Shown in pieces: positions 7,476 to 20,798 of a stretch of DNA of 33,140 bases. Below the pieces are notes generated by a model, which ran no database searches, had not been told where the DNA came from, and was given only the letters and a program-made list of their open reading frames with translations. The position numbers were made by a program, and so were the translations under genes. Each line of letters starts with the position of its first letter. Within the stretch, counting starts at the first letter, position 1. The DNA is from Candidatus Aquidulcis sp. (GTDB lineage Bacteria; Chloroflexota; Limnocylindria; Limnocylindrales; Limnocylindraceae): positions 1 to 33,140 of the forward strand of contig RGCW01000006.1 in assembly GCA_009919005.1 (NCBI GenBank). Direction: 5' to 3'.

Positions 7476-8370
7476 GCGCCGTTCGTTCCGAGAGCCGTCG
7501 CTGCTCACCAAGATCCTGTTGCAGCTTGCCGCCATCGGCATCTTGATCACGGTGCTCTTCCCCGTCATCTGGGTCTTCAGCGTCTCCCTCTCGCCACTCA
7601 ACTTGATTCGTCCGGATGGACTGAACCTGATCCCGAAAGATGCGACCTTTGAGGCATACCTCAAGGTGATCGATCGACCGACGAGCAACCCTGTCAGCTT
7701 CCTTGAGCTGGCATTTAACTCGTTCAAGATTGCCGGTGGCACCGCCCTTGCAAGCGTGGCGCTCGGTGTCTTGGCGGCCTATCCGTTGAGTCGACTGGCA
7801 TTTAGAGGGCGCACCTTCATCATGTTGGTGATCCTTGGCGTGCTCATGCTTCCCGCCGTTGCAACGCTGGCGCCCCTCTTCGTGACCCTAAACGGGGTTA
7901 GGCTCGATCTTCCGATCCTCGGCGCCTTCAACCTGCGCAATTCACAACTGGGCGTGGGCATCGCCATCGTTTCAGGTTCGCTTCCGTTTGCTATCTGGAA
8001 CCTTAAGGGGTATCTCGACACGATCCCACGTGAGCTTGAAGAGGCTGCCGCTGTGGACGGCGCATCGCAGGCGCGCATTTTCCGCAGCATCGTTTTGCCG
8101 CTCGCGCTGCCTGCGATTGCCGTAACCGGGTTTCTCGGCTTTATCAGTGGCTGGACAGAGTTCTACTACTCCTGGATGTTCTTGACGCAGCCCCGCGACT
8201 TCACGCTCGCCATGGCGCTCTCGGCGATGACGGGCACGTATGCGTCAGCGATCCCGTGGCCCCTGGTTTCGGCCTTCTCGATCATGTTGACCCTCCCACC
8301 GGCGATCGTGTACCTCCTCAGCCAGCGATTCATCACGGGCGGACTCGCGGTCGGTTCGGTTAAGGGGTGA
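7462..8370 (+). CDS. Sugar ABC transporter permease (MalG-like)
   Basis: EAAAVDGASQARIFRSIVLPLALPA loop; overlaps the previous gene by 14 nt. Confidence 0.92.
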   Translation: MTTSKRRSFREPSLLTKILLQLAAIGILITVLFPVIWVFSVSLSPLNLIRPDGLNLIPKDATFEAYLKVIDRPTSNPVSFLELAFNSFKIAGGTALASVALGVLAAYPLSRLAFRGRTFIMLVILGVLMLPAVATLAPLFVTLNGVRLDLPILGAFNLRNSQLGVGIAIVSGSLPFAIWNLKGYLDTIPRELEEAAAVDGASQARIFRSIVLPLALPAIAVTGFLGFISGWTEFYYSWMFLTQPRDFTLAMALSAMTGTYASAIPWPLVSAFSIMLTLPPAIVYLLSQRFITGGLAVGSVKG

Positions 8371-9863
8371 GTTCGCAACGGCCCGAGCGGCCCGACACGC
8401 CCGTTTGGGTTCGGGACGCCGTCTTTTATCAGATCTTCCCTGACCGATTCGCACGATCCGCGCGCATACATCAGCCTGGCCCCTTGGAAGAGTGGGGGGC
8501 TGCACCGACGCGCCACGGTTTCAAAGGCGGTGACCTTCGAGGCATCACCGAGCGACTCGGTGAGCTGCAGGAGCTTGGCATCACCGCTCTCTATCTCTGC
8601 CCAATCTTTTCCAGTGCCTCAAACCATCGGTATCACACCTACGACTACTTCAACGTTGACCCGATGTTGGGCGGCAACGAGGCATTACGCGAACTTCTAG
8701 ACGCTGCTCATGCACGTGGCATGAGGGTGATCCTTGACGGTGTTTTCAATCACGCAAGTCGAGGATTTTGGCCGTTTCATCATGTGCTTGAGAACGGAGT
8801 CGACTCGCCTTACGTCGATTGGTTTTACACCGACGAGGAGTTCTTGCGTGGCGATCGCCCACTCGTCGCCTACCCGGAGGCGGCGAAGTGGCAACTCAAC
8901 GGCGGTGCCACAAAGAGCGCCGACGCTACAAACAGCCCTGAGGTTGCTCTTGGATACAAGGCCTGGTGGCAACTCCCTGCGCTCCCCAAGATCAATGTCG
9001 GTAATCCAGAGGCGCGCGAGCACCTATTGAAGGCGGCCGAGTACTGGATTCAATTTGGCGCAGATGGCTGGCGACTGGATGTTCCCGAGGAGATTGATGA
9101 TGAGAGCTTCTGGCAAGAGTTTCGTGCGAGGGTGCGCGCTGTAAACCCTGAGGCGTATACCGTCGGTGAAATTTGGAAGCGTGCGGATGAGTGGCTTACG
9201 GGTGATCGGTTTGATGCAGTCATGAACTACCCACTCACCGAAGCGATCCTCGGTTATGCCGGCAATGGGCGCCTCTCCCGCGATCTGGGCGACCACAACA
9301 ACACCCATCAACGTCCCGAGCTTACTGCGACAGAATTTGCGACACGGCTGCGAGAGATCATGGATTGGTATCACCCTGCGGTGAGCGCCGTGCAGTTAAA
9401 CCTGCTGGGCTCCCACGACACGCCCCGCATGCGCAGCATCTTGGGTGGCAGCAGTGCCGCCGCGCAACTAGCGACGCTCATCCAGTTCGCCCTCCCGGGC
9501 GCGCCCTGCGTCTACTACGGAGATGAACTTGGAGCACTTGGAGCAAACGACCCGGCGAACCGTGGCTCGTTCCCTCAGGACCTCACCGCCATTAGCGCTG
9601 AGGCGTTGGCATTCCGCGCCTTCGTGCGCGCCACGGCCGCGGCTCGAAACGCGCACCCAGTGCTGCGGGGAGGTGCTCTGCGTGTGTTGCACGCAGAGGG
9701 GGCAGTCCTTGCGTTTGAGCGCAGTGCCGAGCCTGTCGGGTTTGAGGGCGAGCCGCTGCAACTCACCGCTGATGCGACGCGCACGATGGTCGTGGTAACG
9801 AACAGCGGTACCCCCGACGGGATTCGAACCCGTGATCTCCACCTTGAAAGGGTGGCGTCCTAG
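8367..9863 (+). CDS. Cytosolic GH13 alpha-amylase-family enzyme (neopullulanase/cyclomaltodextrinase-like), C-terminus apparently truncated
   Basis: GTG start in GTGA overlap; DAVFYQIFPDRF, GVFNHASRGF, GWRLDVPEEID, VGEIW, LLGSHDTPR. Last residues GTPDGIRTRDLHLERVAS are antisense translation of tRNA-Glu. Confidence 0.88.
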   Translation: MSSQRPERPDTPVWVRDAVFYQIFPDRFARSARIHQPGPLEEWGAAPTRHGFKGGDLRGITERLGELQELGITALYLCPIFSSASNHRYHTYDYFNVDPMLGGNEALRELLDAAHARGMRVILDGVFNHASRGFWPFHHVLENGVDSPYVDWFYTDEEFLRGDRPLVAYPEAAKWQLNGGATKSADATNSPEVALGYKAWWQLPALPKINVGNPEAREHLLKAAEYWIQFGADGWRLDVPEEIDDESFWQEFRARVRAVNPEAYTVGEIWKRADEWLTGDRFDAVMNYPLTEAILGYAGNGRLSRDLGDHNNTHQRPELTATEFATRLREIMDWYHPAVSAVQLNLLGSHDTPRMRSILGGSSAAAQLATLIQFALPGAPCVYYGDELGALGANDPANRGSFPQDLTAISAEALAFRAFVRATAAARNAHPVLRGGALRVLHAEGAVLAFERSAEPVGFEGEPLQLTADATRTMVVVTNSGTPDGIRTRDLHLERVAS

Positions 9864-9882
9864 GCCTCTAGACGACAGGGGC
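9809..9882 (-). tRNA. tRNA-Glu (anticodon UUC)
   Basis: Reverse strand GCCCCTGTCGTCTAGAGGCCTAGGACGCCACCCTTTCAAGGTGGAGATCACGGGTTCGAATCCCGTCGGGGGTA: acceptor, anticodon stem CCACC-CTTTCAA-GGTGG and T-arm ACGGG-TTCGAAT-CCCGT all pair. No encoded CCA. Confidence 0.95.
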
Positions 9883-16805: not shown

Positions 16806-18092
16806 CTAGGCTTCGAGGCCCTCCCAGAGCCCACCACTCGCCCAACTCAGGCGTGGGCGCTCTACGGGTGTCCCATCGACATTTCGCTCGCGCTGTGCCA
16901 CGGCCTGCAGGGGAACCGGTGGTGTCCAGCACGCTTTCACGTCACTCTCTTCAACAATTCTGCGCCGCTTATCAATGCCGCAATACGACACCTTGCCGAT
17001 GACGGAACGTCGCATATGTCGGCAGCTTCCACACGAAGCGGTAGGGGTCTTGCAGACCCAGCACCGACCTGACTCCTCTTGGATCGCGCTGCAGGTTGGA
17101 CAGCGCCACGTGAGCACTGGCGCGGCACTCACGGCTCGGACATTGGCTGCTGGCGCGCCGCTTGAGTCAGTCACTGTCGCCGTGATCCGGAAATCACGGC
17201 GAGTGCTGAGGATGATCGTTCCCGGATTGAGGACGATAGAGATACGACCCACCGAAGCGCTCGTTGAAATCTCAACACTCTTTGATGTCTGATTTCCTGC
17301 ACCATCTGTCGCAGTGATCGTCAAGACATTCGTGCCGTCGCGCAGGGCGATGGCGATGCTGAAGGCTCCCTTTGTTGACGATCGTCCACTCTCAATCGTT
17401 CCGGTCGTCTCGTTTCGAACCTGCACGTCAATATCTTTGTCCGTCTTCCCTGTGACAGATACGGAATCACCGCTCAAGATATCTCCAGGTTTCGGACTCG
17501 TGATCGAAAGCGCGGGCGGTGAGGTGTCGCGCACAACAGTGACTGGATTGGATCGATTTCCTTCGACACCGTTGACCACCACGACTGCCTCGATCACATT
17601 GGATCCTGCCGCGAGTGGGATCTGCGCGATCTCAAATCCTGCAGTTTTGGGCATCGCAACCTCAGCTCCCGTAATGACAGATCCGTCGTCACGTGTGATT
17701 AGGATTCGGATGAGCGCATCGCTCGTCGCGAGCAGGTCTTGCGGCAGACTCCCGCTCAGCGTCATTGTCGACGCAGCGGTAATTGGGTCACTCGGCTCGT
17801 TCAAGGTTGGTCGCCCTGGTTCAAGTGATGGGGGTGGTGGCGTTGGTGATCCACCACTCCCAATTGAGGTGATAAATGGGAGTGCGATCGCAGCGAGTCC
17901 AATCGCCCCAACAATGACGGCGAGCGTGATCACAGTGGAGATGGCAGCGGTGATGCTACTACCAATGGAGCGCGAGCCCCGTTGCGATCGCTGCGAGGAA
18001 GAGTCAACTCGATAGGGGGGCGTATACCCCTCGGAGCGGCCACTCGGACCGCGCCGCGGGGGCGTTGTACCCGATCTACGGAAGAGTCCCAT
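16806..18092 (-). CDS. Membrane-anchored Ig-like-domain protein fused in frame to a Cys-rich zinc-ribbon module (possible deletion fusion)
   Basis: N-terminal TM (ITLAVIVGAIGLAAIALPFI), Pro-rich linker and Ig-like repeats (SPPALSITSPKPGDILSGDSVSVTGKTD; ITATVTDSSGAPAAN), then abruptly WRCPTCSAIQEESGRCWVCKTPTASCGSCRHMRR...CGIDKRRR. Confidence 0.75.
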   Translation of the reverse strand: MGLFRRSGTTPPRRGPSGRSEGYTPPYRVDSSSQRSQRGSRSIGSSITAAISTVITLAVIVGAIGLAAIALPFITSIGSGGSPTPPPPSLEPGRPTLNEPSDPITAASTMTLSGSLPQDLLATSDALIRILITRDDGSVITGAEVAMPKTAGFEIAQIPLAAGSNVIEAVVVVNGVEGNRSNPVTVVRDTSPPALSITSPKPGDILSGDSVSVTGKTDKDIDVQVRNETTGTIESGRSSTKGAFSIAIALRDGTNVLTITATDGAGNQTSKSVEISTSASVGRISIVLNPGTIILSTRRDFRITATVTDSSGAPAANVRAVSAAPVLTWRCPTCSAIQEESGRCWVCKTPTASCGSCRHMRRSVIGKVSYCGIDKRRRIVEESDVKACWTPPVPLQAVAQRERNVDGTPVERPRLSWASGGLWEGLEA

Positions 18093-19623: not shown

Positions 19624-20798
19624 ACGAACGTTACGCTCGACGCGAATCGGTGAGCCACTCGTACGGGCCTCTCCCTGCAACTCCGGTTGGTCCGCTGCTC
19701 GTTGCTGAGTCCACTCGACCTGGGCACACAGAGGTGTCTGTTGCTGATGAGATGGCACGTCTGATCCCAGCCATTGAGAGACTTCGTCGAGTGCTACCCG
19801 AGTTGGCACTCAGTGCTGATACTCAGAAGGTTGAGGTGGCCGCCGCAGCCCTGGATGCTGGAGCACACATGCTCAACGATATCTGGGGGACCCGAGCCGA
19901 CGACTCGATGCTGCGCTTGGCTGCAGAGCGCGGCGTACCGATCGTGGTGATGCATAACCGTACCGCTGTCGCGACGGGCGAACACGCAGCCGCCTTTGCT
20001 GATGAGTTCCTCGAAGAGATGGCGGCGGTTGCTGCCAGGGGGCGCGCCCTTGGGATCCCGCCAGAGCGGCTCATCCTCGACCCTGGCTTCGGCTTCGGGA
20101 AGGGCCCAGCCCAGAACCTCGTCACGCTGCGTCTCCTCGGTGCACTCAGGGATCTGGGTCACCCGGTCCTCCTGGGCACGAGTCGCAAGTCCACCCTCGG
20201 TCGGATCATCGATGGGGCGCCAGCGGATCGACTCGCCGCGACGATAGCGACGAGCGCGCTGGGTGCCATCGCTGGGGCAGACATTGTGCGTGTGCACGAC
20301 GTTCTCGAGAACCGAGATGCCGTGCGCGTGATCGACGCGACGCTGCGCGCGACGGGTGACCAGCCCGACGAGGAGATTGGCCCCAACCCAAACCGGGCTG
20401 ATCGTCCGCCACGCCCACATCAACGCGACCGCATCACGGTGCGAAACGTGCGATTTGATGCCGCTCACGGAGTCTATCCAGAGGAGCATCTCAAGCCACA
20501 GCCGTTCTTCGTTGATGTGGAGGTTGACGCCGACCTTGCTCCAGCGGGGCGAGGAGACGCACTGGCAGCTTCCGTGGACTACAGCGAATTAGTTCGTATC
20601 GCCGTTGAACGCGTCGGCACCGGTGGCCACGCGGACCTGATTGAGTCGCTAGCAGAGCGTATCGCGGACGGTGCGCTAGAGGTTGTGAGAGGGAGCGGCG
20701 CACGCGTGTACGAGATCAGAGTTCGTGTGCGGAAGCCACTCGCAGCCGTTGCTGCGGCAATTGATTGGGCTGGCGTTGAGGTGGTGCGAACGCCGTAG
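19620..20798 (+). CDS. Dihydropteroate synthase (N-terminal region missing) fused to dihydroneopterin aldolase
   Basis: ATGA overlap with folC; ESTRPGHTEVSVADEMARLIPAIERL, SADTQKVEVAAAALDAGAHMLNDIWG, LDPGFGFGKGPAQNL, GTSRKSTLGRIID (FolP); then ITVRNVRFDAAHGVYPEEHLKPQPFFVDVEV...VRKPLAAVAAAIDWAGVEV (FolB). Confidence 0.88.
   Translation: MNERYARRESVSHSYGPLPATPVGPLLVAESTRPGHTEVSVADEMARLIPAIERLRRVLPELALSADTQKVEVAAAALDAGAHMLNDIWGTRADDSMLRLAAERGVPIVVMHNRTAVATGEHAAAFADEFLEEMAAVAARGRALGIPPERLILDPGFGFGKGPAQNLVTLRLLGALRDLGHPVLLGTSRKSTLGRIIDGAPADRLAATIATSALGAIAGADIVRVHDVLENRDAVRVIDATLRATGDQPDEEIGPNPNRADRPPRPHQRDRITVRNVRFDAAHGVYPEEHLKPQPFFVDVEVDADLAPAGRGDALAASVDYSELVRIAVERVGTGGHADLIESLAERIADGALEVVRGSGARVYEIRVRVRKPLAAVAAAIDWAGVEVVRTP

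Follow-up and report, generated by a model that had tools for sequence, protein, structure and literature searches.

Long gene overlaps in prokaryotes were reported to be mostly errors, and only some convergent ones may be real (PMC2478687); the same work attributes such overlaps mostly to errors of sequencing or gene prediction. Assemblers that operate on k-mers can also produce paths that are absent from the real genome (PMC8172020). Here we describe a convergent overlap between an amylase gene and a tRNA gene in Candidatus Aquidulcis sp., a member of the Limnocylindraceae (Chloroflexota). The candidate genus Limnocylindrus has been described from freshwater (PMC6169038), and the organism probably belongs near it. 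The window, a stretch of 33,140 nucleotides that was analysed over its full length, is contig C46 of a metagenome-assembled genome (MAG) of 1.1 Mb, which consists of 96 contigs and is 83% complete.

The ORF at 8367-9863 on the plus strand (GTG start, 498 aa) encodes a GH13 TIM barrel, as indicated by a Pfam match to PF00128 over residues 22-411 (E 3.9e-67). Judged by this match and by alignment with congeners, the native part of this GH13 amylase or neopullulanase-type gene extends from 8367 to 9806 (residues 1 to ~481), and it is ~80% identical to its congeneric counterparts. D238, E268 and D351 are kept and are invariant in an alignment of 24 sequences; from general knowledge of GH13 enzymes we take them to be the catalytic Asp/Glu/Asp. 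The 481 codons contain no internal stop or frameshift, and dN/dS against congeners was ~0.05-0.14 over the first 412 codons. Higher values (0.09-0.24) were obtained for the short C-terminal stretch, where the congeners also differ most from one another. We rejected a decayed pseudogene on account of the low dN/dS over most of the gene and the lack of internal stops.

From 9807 onwards the ORF lies antisense to a tRNA-Glu(UUC) gene on the minus strand (9807-9882; ARAGORN, anticodon TTC), for which a cloverleaf with UUC anticodon was found (ARAGORN; Rfam RF00005, 62.9 bits). The tail TPDGIRTRDLHLERVAS is a translation of the antisense strand of this tRNA: it comprises ~17 residues and a TAG stop codon (9807-9863, plus strand), the stop lies inside the tRNA at 9861-9863, and the overlap amounts to 57 bp. 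The first-pass annotation had described this arrangement, and both its coordinates and its translation were right (ORF; ARAGORN).

Eight congeners, all of them draft genomes, have a readable amylase/tRNA junction (G001, G002, G003, G006, G010, G011, G014 and G018). In the window NSG is joined directly to the tRNA, whereas in the congeners NTG is followed by 51 residues, a stop codon, 22-26 bp and then the same tRNA; none of the eight shares the ending with the tRNA overlap. The MAFFT alignment and the translated tails place the junction at 9806/9807 (9804-9809) and indicate a net loss of ~181 bp relative to all eight, equivalent to 51 codons, the stop codon, the spacer of 22-26 bp and 3 bp, with the right edge of the loss at the 3' end of the tRNA. 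Up to 3 bp (GGT) are shared at the junction, a possible microhomology. The missing orthologous tail runs from ESPARV to SGAIFQLR and was not found when the MAG was searched for it; the same query matched three control congeners. Homologues outside the genus have the full amylase C-terminus, so the change is a loss in the window and not a gain elsewhere, and an insertion in the congeners was rejected on these grounds. Nor was there evidence that the contig is a chimera joined at the tRNA: the sequences to its left and right are both collinear with G014 and G001 and similarly diverged from them (~77-81%).

The consequences for the protein were assessed with structure models. In the AlphaFold2 model of a congener (pLDDT 86.5), eight strands follow residue 436 and form domain C. 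The model of the window amylase (pLDDT 83.0) has a high-confidence barrel and keeps three of these strands, while the last five (485-489, 497-499, 508-511, 517-521 and 525-531 in congener numbering) have no counterpart, which leaves the GH13 C-terminal beta domain incomplete; the antisense tail was modelled as a short helix without strands. The congener alignment and the models bear out the earlier proposal that the last beta-strands and the spacer are missing, with the joint at the tRNA 3' end, and the models put the loss at five of eight strands. The length of the missing tail needed correction, since ~45 residues had been inferred from a paralogue and the true orthologous tail has 51. Synteny in relatives, also proposed as a check, revealed the 22-26 bp spacer between amylase and tRNA-Glu in the eight congeners, and a normal C-terminus plus spacer in all eight weakens the case for a natural gene overlap.

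The tRNA is affected by the joint as well. Together with its 5' flank it forms a block of 94 bp that is identical between the window and the eight congeners; identical shared blocks of this sort are the kind that breaks short-read metagenome graphs. The encoded 3' CCA is absent from the window copy (CC|G at the junction, the final A being lost), whereas all 17 tRNA-Glu(TTC) copies that were examined in congeners have it. CCA is also encoded by almost every other tRNA of the MAG, the exceptions being tRNA-Lys(CTT) and one poorly resolved tRNA-Gln call. The MAG contains a candidate CCA tRNA nucleotidyltransferase-like gene (NF009814 match of 236 bits, below the cut-off of 290 bits), and a CCA-adding enzyme could compensate for the altered tRNA-Glu end. 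A tRNA-Glu(CTC), which occurs in several congeners, was not found in the examined part of this incomplete MAG. The tRNA-Lys(CTT) at 7858-7933 of contig C7 resembles the tRNA-Glu: it sits at a clean-loss junction, has no encoded CCA and lies directly against carA, which is itself nearly complete.

To place the amylase junction in context, 600 kb of the MAG were set against three congeners (G014, 702 kb; G011, 316 kb; G001, 137 kb). The 360 kb aligned with G014 yielded 13 gap calls, representing 12 places, in which 120-631 bp are missing from the MAG and hardly any residual sequence remains; in the reverse direction G014 had one loss, and this was ragged. Between G014 and G011 (216 kb) the counts were 0 and 1. 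Several comparable clean losses are found in this MAG and not in the related assemblies. The loss lengths with G014 and with G011 as reference agree (138/138, 207/207, 236/236, 120/120 and 181/173), which shows that the segments are present in both congeners. Relative to G014, 4 of 12 lengths are multiples of three, as by chance, and the GC content of the lost segments revealed no consistent bias. With one additional loss against G011 (C23:11158), 13 junctions were examined for proximity to tRNAs; four of them have a tRNA no more than 25 bp away, compared with 0.47% of bases (P ~3e-7). Contig C1 of G001 carries a single clean loss of 242 bp at 9545 relative to G014 and G011, and no tRNA is present on the examined part of that contig.

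Two of the losses are located elsewhere in the window. At 17130-17142 (17136/17137) ~212 bp are missing relative to G014 and G001, and on the minus strand the ORF of a truncated repeat-domain protein now runs into the zinc-ribbon-like ORF downstream of it. At 19700-19707 (19703/19704) an in-frame loss of 168 bp has removed the N-terminal motif region LTPDSFSGDG of FolP (dihydropteroate synthase), and the folP ORF continues into a FolB domain. On other contigs, the gene for Lon protease (contig C8, 18772) lacks 236 bp and is split into two frames without the segment LLEVLDPEQN..LPKQRENHGL; ilvD (contig C13, 3481) lacks 138 bp, its C-terminal domain being covered only to position 122 of 191; an LmbE-type gene lacks 120 bp; a nucleoside-hydrolase-like gene (named by inspection) lacks 428 bp; and a further clean loss lies between tRNA-Lys and carA (contig C7, 7930). 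Three of the core-gene losses are in frame (FolP 168, IlvD 138, LmbE-type 120). In the remaining parts dN/dS against G014 was 0.013-0.021 for Lon, 0.053 for FolP and 0.016 for IlvD, and by this measure purifying selection on the damaged genes remains strong.

Taken together, these comparisons suggest that the joint at 9806/9807 is probably an assembly fault of the MAG, because biology is a poorer explanation than a fault for some dozen recent losses that affect conserved genes and cluster at tRNAs, all within a single draft genome. A technical cause is what we infer as most likely from the missing segment, its conservation in the congeners, and the excess of losses and their clustering at tRNAs. 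The ~181 bp between amylase and tRNA-Glu would have been dropped in assembly and the flanks joined without Ns, for example if contigs ended at a tRNA sequence shared by co-occurring species and were then joined with the gap discarded. The amylase frame would consequently run into the complement of the tRNA only by chance. The actual genome most likely has the same gene end as the congeners, with a full domain C, a stop codon, a spacer of ~23 bp and a convergent tRNA-Glu with encoded CCA. Some observations speak against an assembly fault. The joints contain no Ns and share no more than a few bases, whereas assemblers usually join contigs in other ways, and three of the core-gene losses (FolP, IlvD and the LmbE-type gene) preserve the reading frame. 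Even with the other losses being artefacts, that of the amylase could be genuine, and some excess of real deletions is expected since the lineage of the window is longer-branched than its congeners.

A real, recent and lineage-specific deletion of ~181 bp between short GGT repeats, removing the C-terminus of the amylase, its stop codon and the spacer, is the strongest competing explanation, and we regard it as unlikely. The gene would then be a young pseudogene or encode a shortened enzyme that is probably unstable; the tRNA would survive because the loss of its templated terminal A is the only damage, and a CCA-adding enzyme could restore this base. The clean joint with its possible microhomology, a right edge exactly at the start of essential tRNA sequence, the nucleotidyltransferase-like gene and the undisturbed amylase frame are in keeping with a deletion. 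However, a single draft genome would then have undergone around a dozen such losses recently, those in Lon, FolP and IlvD included, with four of them at tRNAs. It is very doubtful that such a deletion left a functioning amylase gene overlapping, over 57 bp in antisense, a tRNA-Glu deprived of its templated CCA end, within a wave of small tRNA-border deletions in a streamlined freshwater lineage of the Chloroflexota. A maintained sense/antisense overlap, in which a functional short-tailed amylase takes its last residues and stop codon from the tRNA complement, is hardly credible: the frame does stay open into the tRNA and no catalytic residue has been lost, but no relative shares the ending, five of the eight domain-C strands are missing, and the strandless tail is whatever this antisense frame happens to give.

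The probable assembly fault implies that the striking overlap is most likely not a real feature and not new biology, and the natural overlap considered in the first-pass annotation is also weakened by the comparable losses that the same MAG shows at other tRNAs and within conserved genes. The main lesson is one of caution: none of the readable congeners has the overlap that looks so striking in one MAG, in which losses of the same type also affect Lon, FolP, IlvD and the end of a second tRNA. Gene losses, fusions or overlaps claimed from this assembly should be verified with reads. Were the deletions real, loss at tRNA borders would be unusually fast.

Among known enzymes the amylase is closest to GH13 neopullulanase/cyclomaltodextrinase-like amylases: Foldseek matched the full-length congener model to the Nostoc debranching enzyme (2wcs/2wkg) and to a Thermus structure (2z1k; E 1e-49 to 1e-50); in contrast to these, the window copy is without the last five strands of domain C. 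As in the overlaps of Palleja et al. 2008 (PMC2478687) and the ORFs overlapping tRNAs in AntiFam (PMC9710616), a gene of abnormal length relative to its orthologues overlaps a convergent neighbour. Unlike the erroneous 3' extensions and convergent-overlap errors in those reports, the locus described here is missing ~181 bp, with no frameshift or point change in the stop codon, and its neighbour is a tRNA.
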